The translations under genes were made by a program, and so were the position numbers. This document shows positions 15,801 through 56,155 of a stretch of 64,000 nucleotides of DNA, piece after piece. The DNA lies in contig NZ_LT907844.1 of the NCBI RefSeq assembly GCF_900215505.1, forward strand, positions 4,697,078 to 4,761,077. Reading direction: 5' to 3'. The notes under the pieces are model-generated. The model saw nothing but the letters and a program-made list of their open reading frames with translations. It had not been told where the DNA came from and did no database searches. Positions within the stretch are counted from its first letter, which is position 1; each line of letters opens with the position of its first letter. This stretch comes from Cohaesibacter sp. ES.047 (GTDB taxonomy: Bacteria; Pseudomonadota; Alphaproteobacteria; Rhizobiales; Cohaesibacteraceae).

Positions 15801-15921
15801 GACAAGGCGCGAATGCGCCGACGTCGCGAGCGCGCGCCAGTCGATTTTCGCAAGGCGAAAACGATGAGAGCGCAGACAAGAAACTCAGCGCCAGCTCATT
15901 GCAACGCAATGAGCGAGAGCG
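15801..15921 (+). repeat. Dispersed palindromic element, two tandem copies (A1, A2)
   Basis: A1 (15801-15872) opens GACAAGGCGCGAATGCGCC, has a GCCAG then a near-perfect hairpin TCGATTTTCGC/GCGAAAACGA, and closes GAGAGCG. A2 (15875-15921) opens GACAAG, has GCCAG, the hairpin CTCATTGC/GCAATGAG and closes CGAGAGCG. Both lie between the endolysin stop and the holin-like start, opposite to gene direction. They belong to a family with other copies at 24286, 44842, 49619, 51619, 52697, 54526 and 55856. Confidence 0.8.
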
Positions 15922-15961
15922 TTAGGGTGATGTGATTTTGAGGTTTACGGAGTCGAGGCGC

Positions 15962-16402
15962 TTAGCCGTGCCAGTCGGCGTTTTCGCCGCGCGTGTCGAT
16001 ATGAACGAATGTGTCATAAAGCCCTAGCCCACCGCTGAAGGCCCCGCCATCCCGCCGCCACATCAGGCGGTCATAGCAATACTGCGGGTGACGAGTGGCC
16101 GCGACAAAATCGAGTGCGGTGAAATTCATGTGTTGGCTGGCCGTTGCTTTGCTAATCACCGCGTTGTAGGCCGGTGACCGATATGCACTAATGATCCGGA
16201 TCGGCTCGGCAATGTCGCGCCGCAGCCATTCCAGCTGTTTGGCGGTCTTGATAATGCTCCACCAAAGCTCGGGCGGAGGGTCGGTATTGAGGCCATAGCC
16301 GGGATGCTGCGGATTGAAATGAGCATCGCCCTTGAAAAGCATCTCGGCCGCACTGAAAAACTCAAAACCAAACCCCGCAAAGAATTGCTTAAAGCTCATC
16401 AT
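15962..16402 (-). CDS. Phage endolysin, peptidase M15 type
   Basis: Predicted zinc D-Ala-D-Ala carboxypeptidase that cuts peptidoglycan crosslinks during lysis. In 146 residues it shows RIISAYRSPAYN, the metal motif SQHMNFTALDF (usually SxHxxGxAxD) and TFVHIDTRG with the second His-x-Asp site. AAAGGAA precedes tandem ATGs at 16402/16399, and the start overlaps the stop of the upstream small gene. No signal peptide is seen, so export would depend on the holin. Confidence 0.87.
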   Translation of the reverse strand: MMSFKQFFAGFGFEFFSAAEMLFKGDAHFNPQHPGYGLNTDPPPELWWSIIKTAKQLEWLRRDIAEPIRIISAYRSPAYNAVISKATASQHMNFTALDFVAATRHPQYCYDRLMWRRDGGAFSGGLGLYDTFVHIDTRGENADWHG

Positions 16403-16598
16403 GGCTTATTCCTTTCGGCTTTGCTTTTACTCTTGGGATTGTAGAAATAGCGGCCCCAAAGTGGGCGATCATTCGCGCTCTGGCGAAGGACTCACGTGAC
16501 GGGGCGGGTGGCGGAATGCAACTAGAGCCACGCGAAAGCAATCGGGTGAGAACAGCACGCAGCCACCCTCGCCCGCGATAAAACGCCAGCGTGATCAT
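16389..16598 (-). CDS. Small unknown protein upstream of endolysin
   Basis: A 69-residue basic protein (MITLAFYRGRGWLRAVLTRLL...). The start at 16598 has a good GGAG site and the stop overlaps the endolysin start, suggesting coupling. The first ~12 residues resemble the start of phage NlpC/P60-like proteins, but the catalytic part is missing, so this could be a truncated remnant. Confidence 0.45.
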   Translation of the reverse strand: MITLAFYRGRGWLRAVLTRLLSRGSSCIPPPAPSRESFARARMIAHFGAAISTIPRVKAKPKGISHDEL

Positions 16599-16694
16599 GG
16601 ATTATCTCCAACAATGTAAGGAAAACGCCGCCATTGCCAATCAGCAGCAATTGCGGTAGCAAAGTCTACGGGTAAAACCAAAAGGGGTATTCGA

Positions 16695-16901
16695 ATGACC
16701 GATCAGCCGAGCAATCCAGAGGATCCATGGTTCAAGGTCATTACCCTGATCAACCGCGCACTTCTTCTCACCGAAGGCAACACAAATGCCGCCGTCATCA
16801 ACTATCTACTGGCAATGGTAAAACAAGAGGCAGAGACCCAGCAGGAAGCCGGATCAGCTATGTTGCCGCGCCCGGAAGATAACCCGACACTGCTCAACTG
16901 A
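16695..16901 (+). CDS. Small acidic protein, plus-strand singleton
   Basis: A 68-residue protein (MTDQPSNPEDPWFKVITLIN...) with AAAAGGGG upstream of its ATG. It is the only plus-strand gene among the leftward late genes at this point and lies next to the RelE-like gene in convergent orientation, which suggests a separately expressed cargo gene. The family is unknown. Confidence 0.5.
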   Translation: MTDQPSNPEDPWFKVITLINRALLLTEGNTNAAVINYLLAMVKQEAETQQEAGSAMLPRPEDNPTLLN

Positions 16902-16918
16902 TTGCGTTCGCAAAAAGA

Positions 16919-17197
16919 CTAACTTCGATTTAGTCGTCGGTATACCGCATCATGCGGGCCAACATCGAGCAGTCTAAATCTTGTTTGATGAATTTGGAGA
17001 ATGACCAATCTGTCGCTTCGGCCTGAACGAATGGTCCAACAATCGCGCAGGCCTTTGAACTTGTGCCTACGCAAACCGGGATGGTCGGGATCGGTACTTA
17101 GCTTTTTGACCGTCTCTGTCAGTCGCTTTTGCTGCTGTTGCGAAAGCTTTTTAAATGCACTGACAAACTGTTCGGTATACTCGATCTCGCAAGTCAC
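16919..17197 (-). CDS. RelE/ParE-family toxin-like protein
   Basis: A 92-residue basic protein (MTCEIEYTEQFVSAFKKLSQQQQKRL...) with features of the RelE superfamily: an N-terminal FxxAFKKL helix, HKFKGLRDCWTIRSGRSDRLVI, and a C-terminal LLDVGPHDAVYRR. RelE toxins cleave mRNA on the ribosome. The start is GTG, overlapping the stop of the upstream gene by one base (TAGTG). No standard small antitoxin is seen. Confidence 0.72.
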   Translation of the reverse strand: MTCEIEYTEQFVSAFKKLSQQQQKRLTETVKKLSTDPDHPGLRRHKFKGLRDCWTIRSGRSDRLVILQIHQTRFRLLDVGPHDAVYRRLNRS

Positions 17198-17757
17198 TAA
17201 TCCATCAACGCCTCTAGAAAAGAGACCGTATCCTGAGGTGAATTCGTTTTCGCGATGACCTTGTTGGTTGGATCATGTTTACCACGTAAAAACCTGACAC
17301 CATCAGCATAAATCAGGATCACATCAATCTCGCGCTTGTAAAGACCCAAAACAACATCAAAATCCGCCTTTAAGTCCGACGCATGCGCAGGAGAAAGTCT
17401 TCTACATTCCTTCACAAGAGTGCTGACTTCCTTTTGGGATTTTCGATACAAAGCTACATATTTATCAGCACGATCTTCAATAATCTCAACGAGTCGATTA
17501 AGCGAGGAGATATGCTGACCAGACAACTCGTGTTCTGAGAAAGCGGTATCCAGGCTATGTAGTATCATTTGCCCGTCTCGTTCATATTTATCGAGAGACG
17601 CCCGTAAACTCGCAATCTGTTTCTGATTGGATTCCTTCATTGCAGCAAATCCAGCGTCGGCATCAAAAAACGGGCGTGTGATTGCTGGTGGATCGCCTAT
17701 GCGCTGAAGCGCAGCAGCCTCCAAAAGAGCGTGATCAATGCTTACATCCATATCCAT
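17197..17757 (-). CDS. Helical protein coupled to RelE-like toxin; function unknown
   Basis: About 186 residues from ATG 17757 (a GTG at 17832 would overlap the preceding gene). It is mostly charged helix, with likely coiled coil at about 45-110 (SNQKQIASLRASLDKYERDG...), and a C-terminal segment (VLGLYKREIDVILIYADGVRFLRGKHD) of mixed character. No DNA-binding motif is evident. Translational coupling to the RelE-like gene suggests antitoxin or partner function, but that is inference. Confidence 0.6.
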   Translation of the reverse strand: MDMDVSIDHALLEAAALQRIGDPPAITRPFFDADAGFAAMKESNQKQIASLRASLDKYERDGQMILHSLDTAFSEHELSGQHISSLNRLVEIIEDRADKYVALYRKSQKEVSTLVKECRRLSPAHASDLKADFDVVLGLYKREIDVILIYADGVRFLRGKHDPTNKVIAKTNSPQDTVSFLEALMD

Positions 17758-17804
17758 ACCCGCTTTTCTAGCACATTGTTGCTTATCTGACCACTTACAA
17801 GATC

Positions 17805-18056: not shown

Positions 18057-18142
18057 TGGCCATCAGACCCGCTTGAGCAACCGGATCCGAATGTACGCCC
18101 GTTCTGTCAATCAGCACAAGAACAAAATAAGAACATAAAGGT

Positions 18143-19374: not shown

Positions 19375-19382
19375 GATGCACC

Positions 19383-19820: not shown

Positions 19821-19825
19821 AATCC

Positions 19826-21925: not shown

Positions 21926-21957
21926 GACAGCACCTATTAAGAGAGTTTAGGGAAAGG

Positions 21958-22403: not shown

Positions 22404-22427
22404 GGCGCAGTCCTTTCAAATAAAGAA

Positions 22428-22455
22428 CCCCGCTCAGATCAGTAATCTGGCGGGG
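22428..22455 (-). terminator. Terminator after tail tube gene
   Basis: CCCCGCCAGAT pairs with ATCTGAGCGGGG (one bulge) on the minus strand, followed by TTCTTTATTTG. It would reduce transcription from sheath and tube into E and the tape measure, giving high structural-protein output. Confidence 0.7.
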
Positions 22456-24269: not shown

Positions 24270-24285
24270 GGCATATCTCCTAGTA

Positions 24286-24352
24286 GGCAAGGCGCGAAAG
24301 CGCCGAAGTCGATAGCCAGCGCCAGCTCATTGCACCGCAATGAGCGAGAGCG
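24286..24352 (+). repeat. Dispersed palindromic element, copy B
   Basis: GGCAAGGCGCGAAAGCGCC, then GCCAG, hairpin CTCATTGC/GCAATGAG with loop ACC, then CGAGAGCG. It lies just upstream of the sheath ribosome binding site, opposite to gene direction. The second hairpin matches copy A2 except for the loop. Confidence 0.8.
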
Positions 24353-24361: not shown

Positions 24362-24404
24362 AAAAATCCCGCTCACGGCAGCCGTGGCGGGTGGTTCGGT
24401 TTTG
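24362..24404 (-). terminator. 43-bp terminator repeat, copy 1
   Basis: On the minus strand CCCGCCACGGC and GCCGTGAGCGGG form a strong hairpin followed by ATTTTT. All 43 bp are identical to 25265-25307. It ends the unknown gene at 24429. Confidence 0.88.
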
Positions 24405-24428
24405 ATTGTGGGATTGACTATCCGGCGT

Positions 24429-25247
24429 TTACTCGGTCTTCTCAGCCTCATGAAAACGGCCAAGGTTATTGACAACAAAGTAGAGCTTTGCCTCATCGGC
24501 ATGCCACTGCCGATAAAAGTCAACAGCAGCTTTGACCGTTGTATCTTTCAACAAGTCTGGTCCAAGTGCTTCTGCAATTGTGTCAGGCTCGCGCGGGGCA
24601 TCCTTGCCAAGCAAATGCAACACCAGTTGATTAAATTGTTCTTTTTCGAGCCTCTCAGTTTTTTCGACAGCCTTCAAAACCATCGACTGGATGATCCTGC
24701 CAGCGATATTTGGATCATCAAATTTGGCAAAATCAGATGCCTCTTTTTTGTCAAAGCCGAGTTCTTTGAGACGCTCAGCCAACATTTTTCTGACCCGGTC
24801 ATTCTGAGAGAGCAAACCTCCACCAAGCACGCCGCGCGACCTATTTCCGATATCGATAGCAATCTCTGCCAAGAGCTGAGCCAAAGCCTTGGCCTGCGCA
24901 GCATCCTTGGCAACAGCTTCCAGTTTAAATTGAAGATCAAGTCCCAAACCAGATAGCTTCATTTGCGAAAACTTTGTTCGAAATGTCAACACAGCTCCTA
25001 CCGTTGCCCCAGCTAGAAAGCCTAAGCCGATGGTGACTGAGCTTGGCAAAAGATACTTCATTAAAACTGCGCCACCAGCTGCGCCGCCGAACATAAGCAC
25101 AGCGCCCCTTAGATCATCCAACAAGTTTGCGTATGCTTTTTTCATATCCGACCAGAACCAATCCGATGGCAAATGAAGGATTGCTATCAGCTCCATCTTG
25201 GTTGGAAAGTCGTGTAGAGTCGATAGGTCTACTTCTGGTTTAGACAT
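24429..25247 (-). CDS. Unknown membrane protein, candidate moron
   Basis: A 272-residue protein from ATG 25247 (AAGGA upstream). Two adjacent membrane helices lie near residues 46-63 and 68-86. They are followed by a cytoplasmic Ala/Lys-rich domain with coiled-coil character (FKLEAVAKDAAQAKALAQLL) and the motif GNRSRGVLGGGL. No family is recognised. It is flanked by identical 43-bp terminators between tail-fibre and sheath genes, the typical sign of an added cargo gene. Superinfection exclusion or defence is possible but unproven. Confidence 0.75.
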   Translation of the reverse strand: MSKPEVDLSTLHDFPTKMELIAILHLPSDWFWSDMKKAYANLLDDLRGAVLMFGGAAGGAVLMKYLLPSSVTIGLGFLAGATVGAVLTFRTKFSQMKLSGLGLDLQFKLEAVAKDAAQAKALAQLLAEIAIDIGNRSRGVLGGGLLSQNDRVRKMLAERLKELGFDKKEASDFAKFDDPNIAGRIIQSMVLKAVEKTERLEKEQFNQLVLHLLGKDAPREPDTIAEALGPDLLKDTTVKAAVDFYRQWHADEAKLYFVVNNLGRFHEAEKTE

Positions 25248-25264
25248 AAGAAGCATTCCTTACA

Positions 25265-25307
25265 AAAAATCCCGCTCACGGCAGCCGTGGCGGGTGGTTC
25301 GGTTTTG
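25265..25307 (-). terminator. 43-bp terminator repeat, copy 2
   Basis: Identical to 24362-24404. It ends the fibre-accessory gene at 25327 and leaves only about 17 bp before the start codon of the unknown membrane protein, so that gene must use read-through or a promoter lying in or before the hairpin. Confidence 0.88.
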
Positions 25308-25326
25308 GATTTGGGTTTGGTTTTAC

Positions 25327-27223: not shown

Positions 27224-29485
27224 CTAAAATGCGTTGATCTGGATGCTTTCGCCGAACGGCAACAGGATGTCGCTATCAGACGTTGCGTCGATCCGCCCGG
27301 CGAGCGTAGTAACGGCAGCGCCAAGTGTGAAGTTTGCCGTCACCTTGACGCGGGTGTCGCTTTCGCGATCAGGCTTGTAATCGATCGCGTCCGCATCGAT
27401 AACTGAACCACCCACAATCAGCTTGGGCGCGACTGTGTGGTGGACCTCGTCAAACTCATCCATGTAGACAACAAGACTGACACTGTCAGTGGTCTCCGCG
27501 AATGTGTAATCCTCGGTGATGGCGACCATGTCGGTGCCCATCCGACCGCAGATGATCCGCGCGTCGGCATCAAGAATGATGAAAGGCGCATTGTCTGGCG
27601 TGCCAACAAGGACCGCCTGATAGGCACAAAGCACCGGTTTGGTGGCGAGCGGATTGTCTTCCCGCCCGTCCATGTCGATCCACTCATCAGTGCCAACGGG
27701 TTTGACCTGCCACGAGAGAGAAGCCGACCCGGTCTGCACCGCAGCGTAGGCCATCTGGATCTCGGTCATCCCGTTCTCCAGGCTGACCGGCTCCATCGGC
27801 ACAACAGTCCGATTGTTCTTGAACTCGGCCATGATCAGGCGATGAGAAAGATCGTTCTCGTTCGAGCCCTGTGCCCACACACCATCCGTAGAGGCAAAAC
27901 TCGTCCCCTCAGGAAAAGCGTTTCCGGTTGTCATCGAAATCGAGTGGTTGCCGGTTGTGACCGTAAACCATCCGTATCGATTGCCCGGCTCTTGCGCGAC
28001 AGCCCCCAGATCAAACTCAACCCAACCCTCCCTGAGATCCACATGAGCCACCGTCGCGGTCTTCAACACGCTTTCAAAGTCCGGCGTGCCATCCACCCGA
28101 ACCTCACACAGGCAGAGCGTCACATCGCCTGTCGATCCCACATGCGTGAAATACAACTGGACGCCCAGAAGGATCCCGTATTGAGAGCAAGGGAAGGTCT
28201 GCGCATAGATCGCCCCGGTCAGGCCAACCTCGGTTGTGATGTAGTCGGTGTAAGTCTTGGTCTCAGTGTAACGGATGATGCGCTTCAGGTTGTAGCCATA
28301 ATAGCCGGAATGGGGCTTTTCCTTTTTCGTGATCGTATATTCCTGCCCGTTGATATAGACCAACTCGCCGACGTTCCGACCCCGCAGTGCACGCCATTGC
28401 GCTTGGTTGGAGCAGACCGAAATGGTCTCCCCATAGCGCATGGACTCGTAACTGACCGTCTTCTCGATCGCCGTCAGGACAGAGTAGGTCGTATTCGAAA
28501 GGTTCTGTTCACTGCCGCCCTTGGGCAGTTCGAACCGCACCACGCGAGCATGCGCAGGCATGACAATCTTATTGTCATAGATGACGATGTCATCGCTTGC
28601 TGCATCCAACAGCTCGATGCGATCATTCGACATATTCACATAAGGAAAGCGGATCCCCTCCATAATGCGAAAATTCGCATTAGGATGATCGAGATCCCAA
28701 AAATCCTTTACCAATCCGTAGTCCGACTTGTAGTTGAAGGCCTCGTCTGGCATGTCCAACTCTTCGCGGATCTCCGCCTGCCCTCGCACCAGTTGATACG
28801 TCAGCCAGGGCGGCGGACCATCTTCGATCTGCTGGGCGATGCCAGCAACATCGGTCTTTATGGTGGTCACACTGTTGTTGATATTGGCGATATTTGCCTC
28901 TGCAGCTTGCAGGCGGATCTCGATCTCATAGACAGATTTGACCCGTGCATCCTCGCTGGCGACGATATCCTCGACGCCGGTCGACTTGAGCAAGACAAAG
29001 GCTATGCAGCAATCATCTTCGTCGATGGTTGGCTTAACCGCCGTTGGGCTGATCTCGCCGAGCTGCACGGTGATGCTGGCCGTTCGGGTGATGACCTTGG
29101 GAACGGACTGCGTCACTGGCTCGGAGCTATTGAGCGGCTCATCGCTCGTCTCCAGACGACGGTTTTTGTTGATCGTATCCTCATTGGCCCGTGCCAGCAG
29201 GGCGACCCATCGCCCGTCGCTTGCCACCAGAGGCTTGTAGACCTCAAGGTTTAGATCCTCAGCCTCAACATGATTATAAGTCGCGGAGCCATTGTAATAG
29301 CGCCCGATGCCGATGGTCACAGAGTCCGCATCAGCCGCCTGACTAACCGTGAAGCTGCTATAATGCGCAGGCCAGCCTAGGGCCTTGGCGGCATTCTCGT
29401 CGAAATCATCGCGCGCATTCTCGCTGATCGCGGTGAAGTCTTCAGGCTCGACGATCTCGGCCTCATTGAATTTAATGATGTCCAT
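27224..29485 (-). CDS. Large tail fibre/baseplate protein (DUF4815-like)
   Basis: A 753-residue protein starting MDIIKFNEAEIVEPEDFTAI. The N-terminal ~300 residues resemble DUF4815 phage tail proteins (VTIGIGRYYNGSATYNH, VYEIEIRLQAAEANIANINNSVT). The rest is rich in beta strands and Thr/Val. It lies between gpI and the fibre gene, so it probably links baseplate and fibres or is a side fibre. Confidence 0.72.
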   Translation of the reverse strand: MDIIKFNEAEIVEPEDFTAISENARDDFDENAAKALGWPAHYSSFTVSQAADADSVTIGIGRYYNGSATYNHVEAEDLNLEVYKPLVASDGRWVALLARANEDTINKNRRLETSDEPLNSSEPVTQSVPKVITRTASITVQLGEISPTAVKPTIDEDDCCIAFVLLKSTGVEDIVASEDARVKSVYEIEIRLQAAEANIANINNSVTTIKTDVAGIAQQIEDGPPPWLTYQLVRGQAEIREELDMPDEAFNYKSDYGLVKDFWDLDHPNANFRIMEGIRFPYVNMSNDRIELLDAASDDIVIYDNKIVMPAHARVVRFELPKGGSEQNLSNTTYSVLTAIEKTVSYESMRYGETISVCSNQAQWRALRGRNVGELVYINGQEYTITKKEKPHSGYYGYNLKRIIRYTETKTYTDYITTEVGLTGAIYAQTFPCSQYGILLGVQLYFTHVGSTGDVTLCLCEVRVDGTPDFESVLKTATVAHVDLREGWVEFDLGAVAQEPGNRYGWFTVTTGNHSISMTTGNAFPEGTSFASTDGVWAQGSNENDLSHRLIMAEFKNNRTVVPMEPVSLENGMTEIQMAYAAVQTGSASLSWQVKPVGTDEWIDMDGREDNPLATKPVLCAYQAVLVGTPDNAPFIILDADARIICGRMGTDMVAITEDYTFAETTDSVSLVVYMDEFDEVHHTVAPKLIVGGSVIDADAIDYKPDRESDTRVKVTANFTLGAAVTTLAGRIDATSDSDILLPFGESIQINAF

Positions 29486-33455: not shown

Positions 33456-33866
33456 CTATTTGTTCTTCAAGAGGTCGGACTGAGCAGCTTTTTTGGCCTT
33501 GGCTTCAGTCTCTTCCTTGGCTTTGGCCTCAGCCTCTTCCTTGGCCTTGGCCTCAGCCTCTCCCTTGGCTTTGGCCTCAGCCTCTTCCTTGGCTTTGGCC
33601 TCAGCCTCTTCCTTGGCCTTGGCCTCAGCCTCTTCCTTGGCTTTGGCTTCAGCCTCTTCCTTGATTGCGGACGGTCTCATAGCCTGTTTTCCAGTCGGTT
33701 TTTTACTGAAAACAACACCAACCGACTTGAAATGAGCCAGTTGGCCATCATCGAGTGGCTTGATGATCGCATCATCAACCGTGACAACCCGGTCCGCCGG
33801 CACGGTTACAGAGCCACCATAGGTCTTGACGGCCTGGTCACGGAACCCGCTATTTTTGATTTTCAT
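33456..33866 (-). CDS. FI-like head protein with Ala/Glu/Lys repeat tail
   Basis: A 136-residue protein from ATG 33866 (GAGGG upstream). The N-terminal ~70 residues (MKIKNSGFRDQAVKTYGGSVTVPAD...) form the globular part. The C-terminal half is seven copies of an octapeptide of the form KEEAEAKA, predicted as a charged helix or coiled coil. It sits after capsid E, the lambda FI position; gpFI aids DNA packaging and capsid docking. Function by position only. Confidence 0.65.
   Translation of the reverse strand: MKIKNSGFRDQAVKTYGGSVTVPADRVVTVDDAIIKPLDDGQLAHFKSVGVVFSKKPTGKQAMRPSAIKEEAEAKAKEEAEAKAKEEAEAKAKEEAEAKAKGEAEAKAKEEAEAKAKEETEAKAKKAAQSDLLKNK
33489..33664 (-). repeat. 24-bp tandem repeat (seven units)
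   Basis: About seven imperfect 24-bp units (TCTTCCTTGGCTTTGGCCTC + AGCC on the plus strand) encode the KEEAEAKA octapeptides. Differences are mostly silent T/C changes, so unit gain and loss by slippage is expected. Confidence 0.9.
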
Positions 33867-42679: not shown

Positions 42680-42711
42680 GGCTTTCGCTCCCTTTGGCGT
42701 TCTTCGGCGGA

Positions 42712-43010
42712 TAAACCCTCTTGCGAGTGTTGCGATAGTTCAGCGAGGGTTTTAAGCAAACCCTCGCGGGCCTTTTGTTATTTTAAGTCAGTGAGTTATT
42801 TACCCCTTGCGAGGGTTGCGATAGTTTTAGGGTCTATAACGCACATGAGAACACTTTCTTTAATCTTCCCCGCACCCCTCATGTGTGAGTGCGCGCGTAA
42901 ACTATCGCAACCCTCGCACCTTCCCCGCAAGTCTTTGAAATCGCGACGAAAACAACCCGCGATAGTTTGCTTAAAACCCTCGCTAAACCCTCGCTAAACC
43001 CTCGCAAAAA
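42712..43010. repeat. Iteron-rich region, candidate replication origin
   Basis: A 413-bp gap downstream of the helicase gene is filled with variants of GCGAGGGTT and TAAACCCTCGC. Two perfect 18-bp inverted copies (GCGAGGGTTGCGATAGTT at 42809-42826; its complement at 42900-42917) flank a smaller inverted pair CACATGAG/CTCATGTG (42842, 42879). Another palindrome, GCGAGGGTTT/AAACCCTCGC, lies at 42743-42767. Three tandem copies ending ACCCTCGC occupy 42972-43005, two of them identical 11-mers. The layout suits an initiator- or repressor-binding site. Confidence 0.65.
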
Positions 43011-43092: not shown

Positions 43093-44805
43093 TCAATCCT
43101 TGGGCCGATCGGGTGGAAACTCGTGTTCATGGTGGATTTCCTCCGGCAATTCGATTTTGACGTTGATATATTCGCGGATGCGCCCGTTGACCTTTTCAAT
43201 GCCTTTCTTGGGCAACTCGCGTCCAAAGAGCGTCGATGAGAAGATCTTGACACCAGAGGCCCGGCACCACATCTCATAGCTCTTGTACATATCGGCGCCC
43301 GTCACACGGCACACAGGGTTTCCTTCCTCATCGGGAGGAACGCGCACAACACAGGCATCGATAAAGTTCTGGATCGGGTCCATCTCTGACTTGTAGTTTT
43401 CCGTCAGAGCCGTGACGCTTTGAGGCACCCGCAGCCCCTCATTGACATAGATGGCCAGACCCTCCAGCAACCAGTTGAGAATGCCTGATCGCTCGGCATC
43501 GAACTCGGCGAGCACCTCAGCCATGGGCCGCTTTTCCTCGTCTGAAATGGTCACCTCCCACGGCACAATCAGCAGTCTGCGCCAAATGCCCCAGTCGGTC
43601 CCGGTTATGTAGGGCATGTCATTGCCAGACATCACGGCCTTGAAAATGGGAGTCATGTCAAAGAAGCCCTTGTTCAGGTGGCGCACCATGATCGGCTCGC
43701 CCCCCGTCAGACCCTTGATCAGATCCTCCTTCACCGCCTGCCCCTTTGGCAGCTCGGACATGCGGACCAGGCGCCTGCCATTGAGCGTGACAAGGTCAGG
43801 CGTGGCTTGATCACCCCTACGCTGGCCCGTGCCTGCAACGGATTCCGGGTTGAGCTGGCCCGCATAGACGCCCATCAGGCGACACAGCGCCTCGATCATG
43901 GTCGATTTGCCATTCGCGCCCTTCCCGTACATGTAAATCAGCTTTTGCTCATCAGTCAGGCCCGTGAGGCTATAGCCAAAATAGACCTGTAGAAAGGTTC
44001 GCCGATCCTCATCTGGCTGAAATTTTTCAAGGAATGATAACCATTTGGGGCATTTGGCAGTCGGGTCATATTTGACCGGCGCGCACTTTCCGATAAGCAT
44101 GGTTCGATCATGTGGCACCAGGTCCGTTTCCAGAAATCTACCCTCGGTTTCATCCCTGACACGCCGAAAGATCAAAGTGCCATTCTGCACATTGAACACC
44201 ATCGGATCCGCATCCATCTCTTCCGGACCGATGGTTATGTGGGGCGAGGCCTGCTTGATCATGCCCATCAGTTTGCCATTGTTGCCGCTCGACAGCGCAA
44301 AGCTGCGCCTCTTTCCCTTGCGCCTTCCGAGCGCCGCCTGTGCGTTCTTTGCCTTGTCCAGCAGCGTCTTTTCGGCCTCGGTGTTTTCATCCGAGACTTC
44401 GATGCTCTTGGCGTCGTTGACGGCGGTCTCTTCTGTTGGCGTCATCTTGATGAATGCCGCCTCTTCTTCGATCAACTTGGCTGTCTTTTGGGCAAAAATG
44501 GCAATGCGCTCCTCGCCTCCGGTCATCTCCCAATGGGTTTCGGACCATTGATAAAAGCCCTGCTCACGGACCATGAGAATGCCGTTGCCAAAATGGCAGA
44601 TCAGCCGTTGAGCATTGCCCACGTCATTCTGATCCAGCGTGGCACACCATTTGATTTTTTCGTCATGGGAGGCCATAGGCGGCAGGGCCTCACGCTCGGC
44701 AGCGTCCAAACCATCAATCAGCGCATCATCCGCTGGATGGCCTTCTGCGCAATCCTCAGCGCCGCTTTCCTCCATCTCATGATCGTGCGTATCGTGATCA
44801 GACAT
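43093..44805 (-). CDS. D5-type superfamily 3 helicase (phage/plasmid primase family)
   Basis: A 570-residue replication helicase. The N-terminal D5_N-like region (about 200-285) includes FNVQNGTLIFRR and FLQVYFGYSLTGL. Walker A is YGKGANGKST (about 293-302), and sensor-like segments ATPDLVTLNGRRLVRMSELPKG and FKAVMSGNDMPYITGTDWGIWRRL follow. It acts with the adjacent primase and borders the iteron region. Its start overlaps the primase stop. Confidence 0.93.
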   Translation of the reverse strand: MSDHDTHDHEMEESGAEDCAEGHPADDALIDGLDAAEREALPPMASHDEKIKWCATLDQNDVGNAQRLICHFGNGILMVREQGFYQWSETHWEMTGGEERIAIFAQKTAKLIEEEAAFIKMTPTEETAVNDAKSIEVSDENTEAEKTLLDKAKNAQAALGRRKGKRRSFALSSGNNGKLMGMIKQASPHITIGPEEMDADPMVFNVQNGTLIFRRVRDETEGRFLETDLVPHDRTMLIGKCAPVKYDPTAKCPKWLSFLEKFQPDEDRRTFLQVYFGYSLTGLTDEQKLIYMYGKGANGKSTMIEALCRLMGVYAGQLNPESVAGTGQRRGDQATPDLVTLNGRRLVRMSELPKGQAVKEDLIKGLTGGEPIMVRHLNKGFFDMTPIFKAVMSGNDMPYITGTDWGIWRRLLIVPWEVTISDEEKRPMAEVLAEFDAERSGILNWLLEGLAIYVNEGLRVPQSVTALTENYKSEMDPIQNFIDACVVRVPPDEEGNPVCRVTGADMYKSYEMWCRASGVKIFSSTLFGRELPKKGIEKVNGRIREYINVKIELPEEIHHEHEFPPDRPKD

Positions 44806-46075
44806 GGCGCGCCTCCTCTTCGGTGCTTGCTTTAACTTGGTCGCTCTCGTTCATTGCCTTGCAATGAACTGGCGCGAGTTGGGCGCAATCCGCTTTGCGG
44901 AGTTGGCGCCCCCAATCATTCAAATCCTGTCGGCCGGGTGGCCAGAGTTGGCCCGCGGCGCGCCCCTCCTGCCGAATGCGGCGTTCGGCCATATCCAGCA
45001 GCGCATGCAGGGCATGCAGATCCTTGGTGTCGCCATCGGCGATGAGAATCTCGGTTTTGCAGATATCAGGCACGGCCATGCGCAGGCTCGTCATGTCCGG
45101 CACGATTGCTGGCAAACGGCGCTTTGGGTCGGTCGGGTGCGGCGCGCGGGGCGCATCTGGATGGAACCGCCCCGTCAGATTGCCCATCGTGCCGGCGACC
45201 CATGCGCCCGTTCCGGGTCGGTGAAGCCGTGCAATTTCGCCCGTCGTCTCGATGCCCTCACCGCAAAGCATGAGCTTTGCTGGTGGTGTCAGGCGAATGG
45301 CCGAGCCCATGAAGGGCCCGCGAATCTTCTTGGCCGGGAGGCGCTCAAGCCCCTCCTCGCCCTCAAATTCGATCACCGCCTTGCCCGAGCCATCAGGCAA
45401 AAGCCAGGTCTGATGCACGGCGGAAAAATTGCCCCACCGGTCCTGAAAGGCCGCCAGCATGGCCGGTCCGGAATGAATGACGCGAAAAACGTTCTTCTTC
45501 ACCTCGTGCCAATAGGGCAGATCAGCGTGGAAGCGCAGCGCCGGGGCGGTGACATCAAGGCCAGCAAGCCCTCTGCCCTCGATCAGATAGGTCTCGCCCA
45601 GCGTGCCCTTCATCGGGCCACCGGCCGCGAATATCTTGCGCCCCTTTAGGCGTCCGTCTTCGGCCTGTTTCTTTGCATCGTCTTCGGCTTGCTTGGCCTT
45701 GGCTTCCTGCTCGGCCGCCATCTTGCGGCGCACCGGCGCGGGTAGCGGATCACGCACCCCGCCGAGCATCTCCATCGCCTCATTGAAATCAGCCGCCCCG
45801 CGAAAATCGATCATCCAGTCGATCGGCGAGAACCATTTTTCATTCAGGCGACAGCTGGGCGCGTAGCAGTGATAAAGATTGCGCGACGGGTTGACGACAA
45901 AGCTGGCGTCCCTGTCCCGATGGGCCGGATCCGGACAGCGACCTGACATCAGCCGTCCAGCGCTTTTGAGCTTCGTCAGTTGGCCAATGGCACCCACGAG
46001 GTCAAACCCGGCCTTGGCGCGCACCACCACCTCATCGGGATAGCGCATGCGGGGCTGGTGCATGGTCTTTGTCAC
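44798..46075 (-). CDS. DNA primase, zinc finger and toprim domains
   Basis: A 425-residue primase. A zinc finger lies at about residues 47-75 (Cys47, His52, Cys70, Cys75), followed by a linker of charged helix (about 125-150) and a toprim-like domain with KLMLCGEGIETTGEIARL. It would prime phage replication. Its C-terminal ~30 residues are encoded by a copy of the dispersed palindromic element. It is coupled to the upstream antirepressor gene (ATGA). Confidence 0.9.
   Translation of the reverse strand: MTKTMHQPRMRYPDEVVVRAKAGFDLVGAIGQLTKLKSAGRLMSGRCPDPAHRDRDASFVVNPSRNLYHCYAPSCRLNEKWFSPIDWMIDFRGAADFNEAMEMLGGVRDPLPAPVRRKMAAEQEAKAKQAEDDAKKQAEDGRLKGRKIFAAGGPMKGTLGETYLIEGRGLAGLDVTAPALRFHADLPYWHEVKKNVFRVIHSGPAMLAAFQDRWGNFSAVHQTWLLPDGSGKAVIEFEGEEGLERLPAKKIRGPFMGSAIRLTPPAKLMLCGEGIETTGEIARLHRPGTGAWVAGTMGNLTGRFHPDAPRAPHPTDPKRRLPAIVPDMTSLRMAVPDICKTEILIADGDTKDLHALHALLDMAERRIRQEGRAAGQLWPPGRQDLNDWGRQLRKADCAQLAPVHCKAMNESDQVKASTEEEARHV
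44842..44931 (-). repeat. Dispersed palindromic element, copy D (translated)
   Basis: On the minus strand it opens GACAGG, has a hairpin with CCGCAAAGCGG inside GGGCGC.../...GCGCCC, then GCCAG, hairpin TTCATTGC/GCAATGAA and CGAGAGCG. It encodes the primase C-terminus, the end reading MNESD. Confidence 0.75.
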
Positions 46076-49309: not shown

Positions 49310-49608
49310 GCGTCACGCCCTCCCAGAGTTGCCATTTCGCTGTACTGCCAATCAGGCTTCGAAATAAGCTTGTTGATTTCCTGATCTCTCAACTGATCAA
49401 GATCACGCTTCATCTGTTTCCTAATCCGACCATCAGGAACGGCAGCGAGTCTTTCAGCCATCAGAGCAACGAGCGCGGTCATCGCAGCGTTTGAAATTGG
49501 AGTTTCGAACGTATCCGTGGCGGCATAGAGAGCGTCACGCATGGCCGTGAAATAGGCTTGCGCCTGTGCTTCGTATTCTTTTTTCACTTCAGGAGAGATC
49601 GGCTTCAT
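49306..49608 (-). CDS. Small phage protein of unknown function
   Basis: A 100-residue protein, mainly helical (MKPISPEVKKEYEAQAQAYFTAMRDALYAA... RIRKQMKRDLDQLRDQEINK). It overlaps both neighbours by four bases and starts immediately after dispersed element E. Confidence 0.65.
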   Translation of the reverse strand: MKPISPEVKKEYEAQAQAYFTAMRDALYAATDTFETPISNAAMTALVALMAERLAAVPDGRIRKQMKRDLDQLRDQEINKLISKPDWQYSEMATLGGRDA

Positions 49609-50123
49609 GACTGCACCTCGCTCTCGTTGCCCGCTGTGCCCGCTTTCGCCATTTGCTGCCCAATTGGCTTTCGCTCATTGAGCGGCGGGGCTTCGCCCCT
49701 TGCTTGTACTTGCGCTGGCGGCGGCCGCGTTGCGGACTTGTCTGGCTTTTGCCGCCATTCCTGCCCATCGAGCAGGTGACCGGCGCGTTTTTTGCCGACG
49801 ACCCGGCCCGTTTTAGGACAGCGACCTTTTTCAATATTGTGTATCCGGTTGTGCTCGGCGCGGGTCATCAGTTGAAGGTTCTCCAGCCGATTGTCAGTTT
49901 TGTCTTCGTTGATGTGGTGCAGAACCTCACCCTTGGCTGGTCGTTCATTCCCAGCGGATACCCATACAACTATATGCTCGTAAGCCCATCCGTTCGGATC
50001 CGCCAAAGGGTGACATTTTCCAACACGCACCTTTACATGACCTGTTGAACCGACACGGCTTCCCGGTTTCCAGCGATGCTGTTTCGACGCCTTTGTATGG
50101 TTTTTGTGCTTACCGCGGGGCAT
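49605..50123 (-). CDS. HNH endonuclease-like protein
   Basis: A 172-residue protein with HNH motif GEVLHHINEDKTDNRLENLQLMTRAEHNRIH (about 85-115; written over two parts of the motif: HH...N...H). The N-terminus is very basic. The last ~45 residues (DKSATRPPPAQVQARGEAPP...) come from a copy of the dispersed palindromic element and are unlikely to be part of the nuclease fold. It could be a free-standing homing or packaging-related nuclease. Confidence 0.82.
   Translation of the reverse strand: MPRGKHKNHTKASKQHRWKPGSRVGSTGHVKVRVGKCHPLADPNGWAYEHIVVWVSAGNERPAKGEVLHHINEDKTDNRLENLQLMTRAEHNRIHNIEKGRCPKTGRVVGKKRAGHLLDGQEWRQKPDKSATRPPPAQVQARGEAPPLNERKPIGQQMAKAGTAGNESEVQS
49619..49742 (-). repeat. Dispersed palindromic element, copy E (translated)
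   Basis: Minus strand: GACAAG, CCGCAACGCGG, then GGGGCGAAGCCCC, CGCTCAATGAGCG, GCCAATTGGGCAGCAAATGG and CGAAAGCG, ending CGAGAGCG. About 85 bp of it closely match copy C. It encodes the HNH protein's C-terminus (ARGEAPPL..RKPI.QQMAKA, then NESE). Confidence 0.85.
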
Positions 50124-51599: not shown

Positions 51600-51618
51600 G
51601 CGTCTTGCTCCCTTTTGT

Positions 51619-51681
51619 CGCTCTCACTGGTCGTCATGACGACCAGTTGGCACTGTCGATAGGCGTCGGGCCCTAGCTGTC
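51619..51681 (-). repeat. Dispersed palindromic element, copy J
   Basis: Minus strand: GACAGC, then GCCA, a perfect 10-bp stem ACTGGTCGTC/GACGACCAGT with a 2-nt loop, then GAGAGCG. The stem sequence is unrelated to that of the other copies while the flanks are conserved. It lies between the methyltransferase and the HD gene. Confidence 0.75.
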
Positions 51682-52425
51682 TTGCAGACCTTCCAGATAA
51701 AGTTGCTCATCGGCGGCCTTGCTGGCACCGATGAAGGACGCCTGCCCCCCCAATGTCTGAAATTCTCTTTGAGCTTTGGCGATGCGCGCTTCCGCCACGT
51801 CGAACCACTTTTGCTCGATCTCGATGCCGATGAACTGGCGGCCGAGCTTGGCGGCGGCGACACCTGTGCTGCCCGATCCCATGAACGGATCGAACACCAC
51901 CGCGCCCTCTTCGCAGGAGTTGCGGATATAGCGCTGCAGCAGCGGCCAAGGCTTTTCGGTTGGATGGTTCGTCTCGTCTGGCCACGGCATTTCAACCAGC
52001 GCCATAGAGCCGGGCTGGTTGATGGTGAAAGCCTTCCCCTTGCCGAGAAACAGAACGAACTCAGCCGGTTTCATGTACCAACGGTTCGGCATTGCCGAAC
52101 GCTTGTTCCAGATCAGTAGATTGTGGAACCGGAAGCCCGCGCGGCTGGCCGCGTTCAGCGCATCGCATAGGTTCTTATCGTTGCAAAACACATAGGCATG
52201 AGCGCGCGGAGCGAGGGACTGGAAACAGAGATCCATAATCTCATCCCAGCTGATATCGCAGACAACCGGCTGACCCTTGTTGTCATACTCCTTGAGCCAT
52301 CCGCCACGCGGCGCATCTGGATGCGGCGAGCGCCCGCCCTGCGTCAGCTTGTAGGGCACGTCCGAGACAATCAAATCAGCATCGCGGACGGTGATGTCGC
52401 GCGCATCGGCGAGGTGGAGGGTCAT
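51673..52425 (-). CDS. DNA amino-methyltransferase (N4/N6, beta-type order)
   Basis: A 250-residue methyltransferase. The catalytic motif IV is SDVPY (residues 21-25) near the N-terminus and the AdoMet-binding motif DPFMGSGST (179-187) near the C-terminus, the beta-class order. NHPTEKPWPLLQRYI is the expected segment before motif I. The usual PP in motif IV is VP here, so activity or base preference may differ. It has no restriction partner nearby. Confidence 0.88.
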   Translation of the reverse strand: MTLHLADARDITVRDADLIVSDVPYKLTQGGRSPHPDAPRGGWLKEYDNKGQPVVCDISWDEIMDLCFQSLAPRAHAYVFCNDKNLCDALNAASRAGFRFHNLLIWNKRSAMPNRWYMKPAEFVLFLGKGKAFTINQPGSMALVEMPWPDETNHPTEKPWPLLQRYIRNSCEEGAVVFDPFMGSGSTGVAAAKLGRQFIGIEIEQKWFDVAEARIAKAQREFQTLGGQASFIGASKAADEQLYLEGLQDS

Positions 52426-52769
52426 GCTGCACCGCCAAGCTCTGGTAGAGCGCCAGTCTCTGCAAAGTGCTGCAGATGAGGCAACAGCGCTTTGACCTGA
52501 TCTTGTGTCAGATGCATGCGACTGAGGATGACGACTTGACCATCAGGAGCCGCAACCTGCGCCGGGTTATCAACGCCAAACCACACGCACGGCTCTTCAG
52601 CGCACGAGCTCTCCTGCAGGCTGCAACTTTGGCCATATTTGTCTACGAAGCCAGAGAGCACGAATCCGCGCGCCGTGTTTTTCGTGGAAAGGACATCGCT
52701 CTCGTCATTTGCTGCACAATTGATTGGCGCTTGCTTCGACGGCGCCCGCTTCGCGGTCTTGTCTGTCAT
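52422..52769 (-). CDS. Hypothetical protein with element-derived N-terminus
   Basis: A 115-residue protein from ATG 52769 (GGGGAG upstream). The first ~22 residues (DKTAKRAPSKQAPINCAAND) are encoded by dispersed element F. The rest has a Cys-rich stretch (SLQESSCAEEPCVWFGV) and a helical C-terminus. Family unknown. It overlaps both methyltransferase genes. Confidence 0.65.
   Translation of the reverse strand: MTDKTAKRAPSKQAPINCAANDESDVLSTKNTARGFVLSGFVDKYGQSCSLQESSCAEEPCVWFGVDNPAQVAAPDGQVVILSRMHLTQDQVKALLPHLQHFAETGALPELGGAA
52697..52763 (-). repeat. Dispersed palindromic element, copy F (translated)
   Basis: Minus strand: GACAAG, CCGCGAAGCGG, then GCCAATCAATTGTGCAGCAA and CGAGAGCG. It encodes the N-terminus of the 52769 gene, in the same frame at its start (DK) as copies C and E. 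Confidence 0.75.
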
Positions 52770-54277
52770 GCCGCACACTCCCCTTGTACCGGGATCTCGC
52801 CCCGGTTGGCCCGCACCAGCGCCTCGGCCACTGGCGGGCAGACGCTGTTACCGCATTTCTCGATCTGGGTTGTTTTGCTCAAGCGCTTGCCGTTGTGATC
52901 GACATCGATCTTGTAATCATCAGGGAAGCCTTGCGCGCGATAGAGCTCGCGCGGGGTAAGCATCCGCATGCCGATATCGGCGATCACATAGGGCTCGCCG
53001 CCGATCTCGACGGTGACGAGGCCAAAGCGATCATTAGTGGTGATGGTGTGCAGTGGCTCGTTGGCCGATTGACCGACACCAGCTCCGTAATATTTGATCA
53101 GGAAGGCCCGCACCTCGGCAGCGTGGCCGCCGCCTGCCGTGATGGTCGAAACAGGCCGGTAAAGGCTACTCATGCGGCGAGTTGAGCCATGCATGGACAT
53201 GAGGTGCGAGCAGACCAATTGTGTCTGCGTGCCGCGCGTGGTGATCGTCGCGACAGGCTGATCGGCAGGCCGACCGATGACGCCGAGATTATGCTGCGCG
53301 CCATCGGCCACCACCGTATGCATCGGCTCATAGGCCGCGGTGTGAGGCTTGCCTGAGTTTCGCATGGTCATCAGATGTGGAACGACGAGCGCCTTCTCGC
53401 CACGGTGCGCTCCGGTCACTGTGCTGATGGGCCGGTTGATCGGTTCGTGCCTGCCGCCATGGGTCAGTGTCAGAATGAACGGCGCTTTTGCATCGATCAC
53501 ATAGCGCTGGATGCCGGCAGCAATCCGCTTCAGCGTGTTCTCGGCCAGCGGACGCTTGATGCCGAGCTTTCGGCCCTCTTCCTTGCTGAGAAAAATCGAA
53601 TGGCAGGGCTGCGACCAGTCGATCACATCATTGCCCGCAGTGCGCCATGGCTTCAGTTTACCGGCGATCACATCAGCGCTATCAGGCGCGCCGTGGCTGG
53701 GCGCAGGCCAGCGGATCTTTTTGCCATCGCGGCGCATGACGATAAACAGCCGCTTACGGATGGTCGGTGTGCCATAGTCGCAGGCGCGCAGAACCTTCCA
53801 TTCCAGCTTATAGCCCAGCTTCTCAAGCGCGGACTTCCAGAAGTCGAAATCTTCCCACGTGAGGAATTCCTCAACATTTTCCATGAAGATGCGTTTGGGG
53901 CGGCTGCGCCCGAGCTTCTGGCAAAATTCCACGATCACCCATGCCAGACCGCGCACGCGCTTGCTGGTCGGTTTGCCGCCGCGCGCACGGCTGAAATGGG
54001 TGCAATCCGGGCTGGCCCAGAGGTCATTCACCGGGCGGCCTTGCGTGTAGGATCGAATATCCAGCGCCCACACGTCAGAGGGCAAATGCAGCGTGTCCGG
54101 GTGATTGGCCGCATGCATGGCCAGCGCCAGCGGGCAATGGTTGATGGCTATCTCAGGCGACTTGCCTGTTGCCAGCTCAATGCCTGTTGACGCCCCGCCA
54201 CCACCGGCAAAGGAATCGATGAAGCCAATTGGTGGAAGGCCGGGGCCGGACTCGGTCTGGAATAGATCAAGCATCAC
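52766..54277 (-). CDS. DNA cytosine-5 methyltransferase
   Basis: A 503-residue C5 methyltransferase. Motif I is FIDSFAGGGGASTGIE (about 19-34). The catalytic Cys is Cys92 in SPDCTHFS, where most enzymes have PC. Motif VI is MENVEEF (Glu133-Asn134-Val135). A large target-recognition region follows, with repeats of the form VPHLMTMRNS...VCSHLMSMHGS. C-terminal motifs IX-X are TPRELYRAQGFPDDY and EKCGNSVCPPVAEALV. It probably protects phage DNA from host restriction. Confidence 0.93.
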   Translation of the reverse strand: MMLDLFQTESGPGLPPIGFIDSFAGGGGASTGIELATGKSPEIAINHCPLALAMHAANHPDTLHLPSDVWALDIRSYTQGRPVNDLWASPDCTHFSRARGGKPTSKRVRGLAWVIVEFCQKLGRSRPKRIFMENVEEFLTWEDFDFWKSALEKLGYKLEWKVLRACDYGTPTIRKRLFIVMRRDGKKIRWPAPSHGAPDSADVIAGKLKPWRTAGNDVIDWSQPCHSIFLSKEEGRKLGIKRPLAENTLKRIAAGIQRYVIDAKAPFILTLTHGGRHEPINRPISTVTGAHRGEKALVVPHLMTMRNSGKPHTAAYEPMHTVVADGAQHNLGVIGRPADQPVATITTRGTQTQLVCSHLMSMHGSTRRMSSLYRPVSTITAGGGHAAEVRAFLIKYYGAGVGQSANEPLHTITTNDRFGLVTVEIGGEPYVIADIGMRMLTPRELYRAQGFPDDYKIDVDHNGKRLSKTTQIEKCGNSVCPPVAEALVRANRGEIPVQGECAA

Positions 54278-54492
54278 TCTGCCCCCTCGCCGCGCTGCAG
54301 AGCCTCAACAGCGGCTCCGATTTTTTCATGCAGCTCGATCAGCTCGCTCGGCGAGACCGTGCTAAAGCGCGGATCGGGGATTTGGAACGGACCGCACACG
54401 CGAAAATGGACTTGCCCGGAGGCAGGATCGCGCAGCGGCGAGACCGAAATGGGTGGCTTGAATGACGTGGAAAAATTGTGGTGACGCTTCAT
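54274..54492 (-). CDS. Small hypothetical protein
   Basis: A 72-residue protein from ATG 54492 (GGAGG upstream), MKRHHNFSTSFKPPISVSPL... FSTVSPSELIELHEKIGAAVEALQRG. It overlaps the cytosine methyltransferase start. The upstream frame extension runs into dispersed element G and is rejected. Family unknown. Confidence 0.65.
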   Translation of the reverse strand: MKRHHNFSTSFKPPISVSPLRDPASGQVHFRVCGPFQIPDPRFSTVSPSELIELHEKIGAAVEALQRGEGAE

Positions 54493-54525
54493 TGAACGGC
54501 CTCCATCACAAGCAAAATTCGTTGA

Positions 54526-54592
54526 CGCTCTCGCCATTTGCTCCGCAATTGGCTTGCGCTAGCGACGACTTCGGCCGCCATGCAGCCTTGTC
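54526..54592 (-). repeat. Dispersed palindromic element, copy G
   Basis: Minus strand: GACAAGGCTGCATGGCGGCC, then GCCAATTGCGGAGCAAATGG and CGAGAGCG. It fills the gap between the stop of the 54595 gene and the ribosome binding site of the next. Confidence 0.75.
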
Positions 54593-54594
54593 TG

Positions 54595-55272
54595 TTACGC
54601 CGCATGGTGTGCCTCCTGAACGATGTGCCGGCCTGACACGCGCTTCTGTCGCTGGAGATGCGCCTGCGCCGCGCGGCGGACGGTCTTTTTGTCGACGCCC
54701 AGGGCCTCGACCACATCAGCCTGCGAAAAACCTTCCTCGTGCACCAACCGCCCGAGGAACAACCGAAACAGATGCTTGTGGTGCGACCGCTCACCATGAT
54801 AGATCGCCAGCGGTGTTTCCTCCTCGTCATGCGCCAGCGCGCAGAGACAGGTGAGATAGGCAGAGGGAAGCTCCGGCAAGGGCGGATCAATGGGACAGTC
54901 CCGCGCGCCGCCATAGCTGCTGATCATGACCAGAGCATTCGGCGCGGTCGCCTGAATGATCGCGGCGATTGCGCCGCCCGTCATGCCCCAGCGGTTGGCC
55001 AGGTGCCATGCCACTGCACCGCGCGCCGGTCGCGCCTCTTTCGATCTGTGAAAGCCATTGACATCGACGCCTTCCGCATCGCAAGCCCACGTGATCAAGG
55101 CCTGAATGTTTTCCTCCAAACAAACAAACCAATCCGGCAGCATCGGACGAGGCTTGGGGCCATAGCCGCAGATTGCCGCTATATCAGCAGCCGCAAGGTG
55201 ATAATCCGCCGCAATGCGCTTGAGGCTGTTGCCGTGCCGGAAATGCCGCTGCCTGATTCGTTCCTTGTCCAT
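54595..55272 (-). CDS. Hypothetical protein with helix-turn-helix C-terminus
   Basis: A 225-residue protein from ATG 55272 (GAGGAGG upstream). It has an N-terminal HTH-like stretch (NSLKRIAADYHLAAADIAAI) and a clear C-terminal one (FSQADVVEALGVDKKTVRRAAQAHL). Between them lies CLCALAHDEEETPLAIYHGERSHH. It may be a phage regulator. The start overlaps the previous stop (TGATG). Confidence 0.68.
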   Translation of the reverse strand: MDKERIRQRHFRHGNSLKRIAADYHLAAADIAAICGYGPKPRPMLPDWFVCLEENIQALITWACDAEGVDVNGFHRSKEARPARGAVAWHLANRWGMTGGAIAAIIQATAPNALVMISSYGGARDCPIDPPLPELPSAYLTCLCALAHDEEETPLAIYHGERSHHKHLFRLFLGRLVHEEGFSQADVVEALGVDKKTVRRAAQAHLQRQKRVSGRHIVQEAHHAA

Positions 55273-55751
55273 CACGCGCCCTCCTCGATTTGTTTGACCC
55301 GCTGTTTCATGCCAACCAGCACCTGCAGCGCGTCGTCGATCTCCTTGCGCAGGCGGTGCGCGCGGCATTCGTCTGGCGTAATCTCACCGTCATCGGCCAG
55401 ACATTCGCCAATGTGGTGCGTGACTTCGCCCACTTCCTTGAACATCGCAGCCAGCTGCTGGTTGATGTCGCCGTCCCAGCGCCCGTCGGGCAGCTTGACC
55501 ACCTCGAAGCCCAGCGCCTGCACCAGCGCCCGGCTGACCACCGGCTCGCCGATGTCCTTTTCCAGATCGGCGATCACATCAGCGGGCATCCAGTCGCGCC
55601 CGTCCGGCGCGCCATAGCGCCCGATGTGGGCTTGGCTGACCCGCGAAAGGTCGGCGGCGCATTCGATGCCGCCGCATGTCTTGATCAAGGCGCGGCACCG
55701 ATGCCGCAGGCGCAGGTAAAAGTCGGCGGCATATTGGCGGGCCTCGGTCAT
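55272..55751 (-). CDS. Phage regulatory protein, CII-like
   Basis: A 159-residue protein from ATG 55751 (GGGAG upstream). It has a helix-turn-helix region (HRCRALIKTCGGIECAADLSRVSQAHIGRY) and a helical C-terminus (RLRKEIDDALQVLVGMKQRV) reminiscent of phage CII-type regulators. It is first in the leftward cluster next to the immunity region, a fitting place for an early activator. Confidence 0.62.
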   Translation of the reverse strand: MTEARQYAADFYLRLRHRCRALIKTCGGIECAADLSRVSQAHIGRYGAPDGRDWMPADVIADLEKDIGEPVVSRALVQALGFEVVKLPDGRWDGDINQQLAAMFKEVGEVTHHIGECLADDGEITPDECRAHRLRKEIDDALQVLVGMKQRVKQIEEGA

Positions 55752-55846
55752 GAGAAATTTCTCCCGTCTTTCTCGGTGACAGGCAGTGGGCAGTCTTGAG
55801 AGACTGCCCGGCAGGAAAGCAATCCAGAAATCAGGAGGCGAGAAAG

Positions 55847-56155
55847 ATGACAAAAGACAAGGCGCGAAAGCGCCGACGTCGACGGCCAGTACGAGCAAGG
55901 GGCGAAGCCCCGCCGCTCATTGTGCGAAAGCCAATTGCGCAGCAAATGGCGAAAGCGCCCACAGCGGGCAACAAGAGCGTCCATGCGCAGCAAATGACGA
56001 AAGCGGGCAAGACTGCCCTCCCCGAGAATCCGACTGAGGTCAGAGCGAAGGCGCGCGAAATCGGTGAGATGCTCGCACGGGAGCATGAGGCGCGGGTCAG
56101 GCAGCATCACCGGCCTCCTGATTGCGGAAATATGCCTGAAACGACTGGAACGTGA
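55847..56155 (+). CDS. Small basic protein built largely from a dispersed element
   Basis: A 102-residue frame from ATG 55847 with AGGAGG eight bases upstream. The N-terminal ~50 residues (DKARKRRRRRPVRARGEAPP...) are encoded by element C and share ARGEAPPL..RKPI.QQMAKA with the HNH protein tail. The C-terminal ~20 codons overlap the Cro-like gene antisense. The ribosome binding site argues it is expressed; it may also be an accident of the element. Confidence 0.45.
   Translation: MTKDKARKRRRRRPVRARGEAPPLIVRKPIAQQMAKAPTAGNKSVHAQQMTKAGKTALPENPTEVRAKAREIGEMLAREHEARVRQHHRPPDCGNMPETTGT
55856..55979 (+). repeat. Dispersed palindromic element, copy C (translated)
   Basis: GACAAGGCGCGAAAGCGCC, GTCGAC, then GGGGCGAAGCCCC, a CGCTCA...GCG hairpin, GCCAATTGCGCAGCAAATGG, CGAAAGCG. 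A partial second copy of the last module follows at 55985-56007. The central ~85 bp closely match copy E. Confidence 0.85.

Follow-up and report, generated by a model that had tools for sequence, protein, structure and literature searches.

What are the short palindromic elements that recur at gene boundaries of a Cohaesibacter prophage, and how did they come to be there? This question is raised by a window of 64,000 nucleotides (nt) from the marine bacterium Cohaesibacter sp. ES.047, the whole stretch of DNA that was analyzed, which contains a prophage of ~50.7 kb with a 43-bp tRNA-Thr duplication at its edges (12667 and 63350). From the sequence alone, an initial annotation had described nine related elements in the prophage (A1, A2, B, C, D, E, F, G and J; Table 1) as a dispersed family with conserved ends, covarying stems and a partly translated position, and had suggested as checks a covariance-model scan, a statistical test of covariation and a comparison with homologues that lack the elements. 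These checks bear the description out. The family exists, its stems covary, its sites occur both filled and empty, and proteins that carry an element have homologues without the tail. We consider it probable that the elements form a phage-borne, non-autonomous palindromic family that has spread as DNA units, some of which have become tails of proteins.

Conserved ends and covarying stems

All nine elements lie where the initial annotation placed them, and they are found again by covariance models. Model R1, built from A1, B, F and G, matches all of them at E-values of at most 0.0064, and the next matches are another part of E (E-value 0.14) and one at 0.69. The pairing of hairpin 2 in R1 is one column off register, and our conclusions rest on models R2 and R3 instead. 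The training set of R2 consists of F, G and three copies from elsewhere in the genome; searched against 18 sources, R2 matches the seven window copies not included in that set, with E-values of 2e-11 for B, 9e-9 for D, 2e-8 for A1, 9e-7 for C, 3e-5 for J, 6e-5 for A2 and 8e-5 for E. A match at 28921-28990 (17.6 bits, E-value 0.16), equalled in score by one in a second prophage of the same genome (prophage 2), was taken as chance, as were the remaining R2 matches above 0.01 in this search. Independently of any model, the motif GAGAGCG stands immediately 3' of a hairpin of at least 8 bp seven times in the prophage and never in the window flanks, whereas the mean is 0.5 and the maximum 3 when the prophage is shuffled 40 times in blocks of two bases. 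The folding energies of F and J are not unusual (fractions of 0.38 and 0.15 of 300 random prophage segments are equally stable). Folding energy would thus not convince by itself, and the evidence for the family lies in its conserved ends and its covariation.

Read in its own direction, an element starts with GAC, AA, hairpin 1, three bases (NNN) and a GTC that closes on the GAC, and continues with a linker ending about GCNAGCGCCAG, hairpin 2 and GAGAGCG. Hairpin 1 has 6 bp with a 3-nt loop or 5 bp with a 4-nt loop. Hairpin 2 has about 9 bp, one stem position being unpaired in 22 of 44 scored copies; the last three bases of GAGAGCG close on CGC, and the outermost pair of this hairpin, unpaired in 14 of the 44, is the weakest. 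The length is 63-82 nt in 27 of 33 copies with readable ends, and about 62-130 nt over the family. The base 5' of the element is A in 28 and the second base 3' is C in 23 of these 33 copies, which are not 33 independent cases, as some sites are homologous. Tandem copies occur as A1/A2 and at the start of locus L067. E and C, initially described as single elements, are indeed present, but like two copies in L076 they are longer composites with extra hairpins nested inside hairpin 2. Behind C, part of hairpin 2 is repeated up to 56009.

When five copies are aligned with MAFFT, two-sided changes affect 10 of the 21 pairs and 93.3% of the cells are paired, as opposed to 82.7% after shuffling; none of 500 shuffles reaches the observed value on either measure. 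Further pair types, in contrast, are no more numerous than in shuffled alignments, 415 of the 500 having at least as many. Over 46 copies (45 distinct), two-sided change extends to 20 of the 21 pairs and 170 of 894 cells, with 91.9% of cells paired versus 73.3% in shuffled and 25-44% in slid alignments, values that come from related copies in an alignment fitted to the structure. The covariation had been taken to suggest selection on structure; the covariation stands, but such selection cannot be told apart from the copying of structured units together with gene conversion.

Filled and empty sites, and tails of proteins

The intergenic site between phrog_204 and phrog_210 holds a 70-nt element in L069 and none in the window, L076, L043 or L046. 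In three proteins of the window, homologues without the element show what the tail adds. The last 45 residues of the HNH protein lie past a proline, and 41 of them are encoded by E; homologues without E (L136-L138, 69-77% identical) end 1, 8 or 9 residues past that proline. In the phrog_3849 protein, F sits between the start codon and the domain, whereas homologues without F (L132-L134, 44-54%) begin at the domain. Nine primase homologues without D (L086-L094, several near-identical) end 9-10 residues past a DW motif, and the two primases with elements continue for 36 or more. The same comparison corrects D: the first 20 nt of D as then drawn encode the primase motif DLNDW, which is common to element-free homologues as D-[LM]-[NA]-DW, so that D spans about 44842-44911 and does not reach 44931. 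Outside the window, a small protein of the C3 prophage of genome G016 has the tail in four of eight homologues (identified by the model in L063, L179 and L180, and only through translated similarity in L176) and lacks it in L173, L175, L177 and L178. Together, the HNH, phrog_3849, primase and small-protein homologues, compared as sequences, support in-frame insertion as a feature of the family.

Elements also differ in completeness at a given site. At one phage gene start, L071 has a full element and L072 one without the hairpin-2 half, and the reading frame is preserved. The element at the J site of L076 is shortened, which shows that elements also decay in place.

Of the four copies said to be translated, D, E and F are thus borne out by tail-free homologues, and the putative translation of C rests on its open frame only; the C protein is similar to other loci only across the element part. 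C, E and F do share a frame that starts with the residues DK. This frame is not, however, an intrinsic property: of 24 noncoding copies, 9 have it open, which does not exceed the one half obtained with shuffled sequence. Among the 33 copies with readable ends, the length to GAGAGC is a whole number of codons in 9 of 9 scored coding copies, chosen partly for their open DK frame and without D, versus 9 of the 24 others. The open frames therefore look selected rather than intrinsic, and selection after insertion is enough to account for the fused copies.

One might suppose that all this is ordinary coding and intergenic phage sequence, common by descent and never dispersed. Some sites are indeed common to related phages, but the two-hairpin unit occurs in unrelated genes, element-free homologues exist, copies 92-93% alike stand at different sites, and the filled/empty comparisons contradict the idea, which we regard as extremely improbable.

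Spread through phages and rival explanations

At an E-value below 1e-3, the genome of the window has 14 copies, namely the nine of the window, three in prophage 2 (4.03-4.06 Mb) and two others beside genes of prophage type, a CHAP enzyme and phrog_17576 at 4.636 Mb and a repressor at 2.425 Mb. Three weaker R2 matches in this genome (E-values 0.08-0.57) are absent from the R3 list at 0.01 or below. Within the window, the earlier observation that the host flanks hold no copy remains valid. A scan with R3, confined to the genus Cohaesibacter, gave 51 matches at E-values of at most 0.01 in 13 of 18 genomes, and 48 of the 51 adjoin genes that are common to these phages or match PHROGs.

Beyond the genus, R2 matches 12 of 397 genomes of the order at 1e-4 or below, nine of Cohaesibacter and three of one genus of another family, and a hairpin-2-half pattern is found in 6 of 387 genomes, all of the same two genera. 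At the level of the class, 1 of 385 genomes matches, the window's own, with no copy elsewhere; weak copies may have been lost to the strict filters of the two large R2 scans. A match in G024, of another family of the order (E-value 5.4e-4), looks unlike the family and was taken as chance. A pattern search of viral sequences gave three stretches: L110 is the contig of the window's own phage, the copy in L109 has the score of the one in L071, and L108, with a model E-value of 0.11, was taken as chance. With 24 kb of the prophage as query, no near-identical sequence was found among GenBank phages.

Some matches lie in other surroundings. Two in Cohaesibacter chromosomes are weak hairpin-2 relatives with a GCGACAG foot beside purH (L181 7491-7571 and L182 7061-7136), one of them the sole match of its genome, and a third (L183 7185-7250) lies in the 16S-23S spacer of G015, at most 4 bases from the match to the spacer tRNA. 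In the genus of the other family (L073, L075, L080, L081 and L082), relatives of 61-63 nt with a different first hairpin stand 3' of tRNA genes; in five of seven loci examined, two or three bases separate the end of the tRNA from the relative.

Structures between phage genes could serve as RNA, in processing, stability or translation control. Covarying stems would fit such a role, as would the retention, in several phages, of the sites that precede the phrog_17576 gene and a tail gene, and the ribosome-binding sites that abut several elements. Yet copies in the tail and lysis regions are antisense to the genes and those in the early region are sense (by inspection and uncounted, with gene directions taken from homologous genes, since greedy calls of open reading frames (ORFs) gave unreliable ones), and the conserved unpaired bases are identical in both, so that the copies cannot all serve one RNA role. 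No Rfam 15 family scores above its cut-off, and 52600-56100 has no match up to an E-value of 10. An RNA role thus appears quite unlikely, and the presence of the same conserved bases in both orientations argues for recognition of the element as DNA rather than RNA.

Alternatively, the elements could be single-stranded DNA signals of phage replication, such as priming sites, duplicated for their function. The copies on the plus strand (A1, A2, B and C) and those on the minus strand (D, E, F, G and J) do each occupy one uninterrupted part of the circular phage genome, as expected of a signal oriented by the fork, but chance alone would separate nine elements in this way in about 7% of cases (9/126, by hand). 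Moreover, the GC skew has no clear turning point, iteron-like repeats at 42.7-43.0 kb would put the origin elsewhere, and the coding use would be left unexplained. We give this explanation very little chance.

The strongest competitor treats the elements as recombination joints, that is, as conserved palindromic linkers at gene boundaries that are kept for the exchange of modules without breakage of genes. A block of homology between the window and prophage 2 begins at B, identity falls from 97.75% to 86% across A1/A2, and the phrog_17576 gene is joined by its neighbouring element to different lytic enzymes, an M15 peptidase in the window and a CHAP enzyme in L106. Homology is one-sided in 65 of 98 element-phage pairs versus 150 of 300 at the 230 gene boundaries that served as controls (Fisher p 0.005), a comparison in which the pairs are dependent and the control gene calls crude. 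Other block ends between the window and prophage 2 (18134 and 31062) have no element, however, and the in-frame tails and the clean filled/empty site require insertion of the unit itself. Joints as the whole explanation are therefore unlikely; that the elements additionally mark module junctions is suggestive only.

The likeness between copies favours the spread of DNA units. Copies at two sites of one phage are 93% alike, some 20 flanking bases being also alike, and copies at different sites of two phages are 92% alike. Among 27 chosen copies, likeness is 0.738 within phages (39 pairs) versus 0.701 between them (303 pairs), a value reached in 4 of 2000 label shuffles. The 93% pair and the slightly higher likeness within phages point to copying within phages.

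We suggest a model in which one family of short, non-autonomous two-hairpin DNA elements would have spread through temperate phages of Cohaesibacter. The unit may copy itself as DNA, the likeliest route being that its folded single strand would be recognized by a factor acting in trans or by the phage's replication and annealing enzymes. Its copies are situated immediately after genes or a short way within their ends, presumably where insertion is tolerated or aimed, and an insert of whole codons with an open frame would become the N- or C-terminal tail of a phage protein.

Several observations weigh against this model. The aligned stretches of L043 and L046 are alike, which reduces the four empty sites to three lines at most, and at the one clean filled/empty site a target-site duplication is not readable. 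No mobilizing enzyme was found: a Y1_Tnp match is present in six of the 11 carrier genomes of the genus and absent from five (G001, G006, G007, G013 and G016). Several sites are common to related phages, and movement may have ceased. Finally, 3 of the 51 matches in the genus lie outside recognized phage DNA, as do those of the other genus. The IS200 of the window's own genome was rejected as a source, since its ends differ from those of the element. Either a trans-acting enzyme that is now absent or phage replication and annealing may have moved the family. A wider proposal, which we make tentatively and think rather doubtful, is that of a virus-borne, protein-coding palindromic class that would be copied via single-stranded hairpins exposed by phage replication, without a transposase of its own, making both tails and crossover joints, and for which phages rather than host chromosomes would be the main reservoir.

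Table 1. Elements and associated features of the prophage, by position in the window
Feature	Position	Strand	Remarks
attL-side copy of the 43-bp tRNA-Thr duplication	12667-12709	+	direct repeat, 100% identical to 63350-63392
Element A1	15801-15872	+	antisense to flanking minus-strand genes; just upstream of phrog_17576 gene 14985-15785
Element A2	15875-15921	+	second tandem copy; hairpin 1 reduced
Element B	24286-24352	+	antisense to tail-sheath gene; prophage 2 homology block starts at 24274
CHC2/DUF7146 primase gene, carries D	44798-46075	-	
Element D, 5' end corrected	44842-44911	-	C-terminal in-frame extension of primase; model match 44842-44907
HNH_3 endonuclease gene, carries E	49605-50123	-	
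Element E, composite	49619-49742	-	C-terminal in-frame extension of HNH protein
Element J	51619-51681	-	provides TAG stop of methyltransferase gene 51673-52425
phrog_3849 protein gene, carries F	52422-52769	-	domain begins at residue 31 of 118-aa ORF 52422-52778
Element F	52697-52763	-	N-terminal in-frame extension, immediately 3' of start codon
Element G	54526-54592	-	2 bases past TAA of ORF 54595-55368; no fusion in DK frame
Element C, composite	55856-55979	+	near start of 102-aa ORF 55847-56155
Partial hairpin-2 copy after C	55982-56009	+	matches arms of E and F at 91-92%
Empty site	59557-59584	+	L069 has the 70-nt element between the homologous gene pair
attR-side copy of the duplication	63350-63392	+	overlaps tRNA-Thr(TGT) 63353-63428; integrase 62149-63306 adjoins

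Element G also overlaps a 141-aa ORF (54489-54914) in another frame. The prophage holds further repeats. Between two phage genes, at 42700-43010, are clustered direct and inverted CCCTCGC / GCGATAGTTT repeats of iteron-like type, possibly a replication origin or control site. Direct repeats of 55 bp, 93% alike (24362-24416 and 25265-25319), flank a gene at 24429-25256 without a Pfam match, which contig C27 of G016 lacks at the corresponding place, and a 24-bp tandem repeat of ~7 copies lies in the late region (33493-33663).

Relation to known elements

Among open-licence papers, judged by titles and abstracts, we found none that describes elements of this kind in Cohaesibacter or in phages of this genus. 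A family carried by phages, whose homologues occur with and without the element, would lend itself more readily to experiments on how such elements spread, why they sit at gene ends and whether the protein tails are useful. Lambdoid phages have conserved short boundary sequences that are likewise repeated at gene boundaries; the Cohaesibacter elements differ in being folded, covarying and inserted in frame. Repeats of the type of miniature inverted-repeat transposable elements (ERIC, CIR, RUP and Correia) are also small, dispersed, folded and devoid of an enzyme of their own, but, compared by description, the ends of the family described here are not inverted repeats, and no target duplication could be read at its one clean site. 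A parallel in working may be offered by repetitive extragenic palindromes with their associated tyrosine transposases (REP/RAYT) and by elements derived from IS200/IS605, which resemble the family in short foldable hairpins, conserved feet and a stem mismatch like that of hairpin 2; they differ in that five carriers of the family lack the Y1 transposase and in that the ends of the resident IS200 are others.

The closest resemblance in behaviour is to Rickettsia palindromic elements (RPEs), which have counterparts in Wolbachia. According to two reviews, RPEs are short palindromic repeats of alphaproteobacteria that are found between genes and fused in frame into protein genes, with Rickettsia as the main case of such fusion (PMC2229807, PMC10969869). 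The Cohaesibacter family, too, is short, palindromic, both intergenic and in frame within genes, and at home in alphaproteobacterial hosts. As described there, RPEs measure 105-146 bp, consist of a long stem-loop with terminal inverted repeats, reside in Rickettsia genes and each have an open frame with a conserved peptide (PMC10969869). The Cohaesibacter copies, in contrast, are mostly 63-82 nt long, have ends (GACAAG and GAGAGCG) that are neither complementary nor inverted, form two separate hairpins, lie almost all beside phage genes and carry no intrinsic open frame. The likeness to the Rickettsia elements is one of behaviour only, and by the described form of RPEs the Cohaesibacter family is set apart from them.

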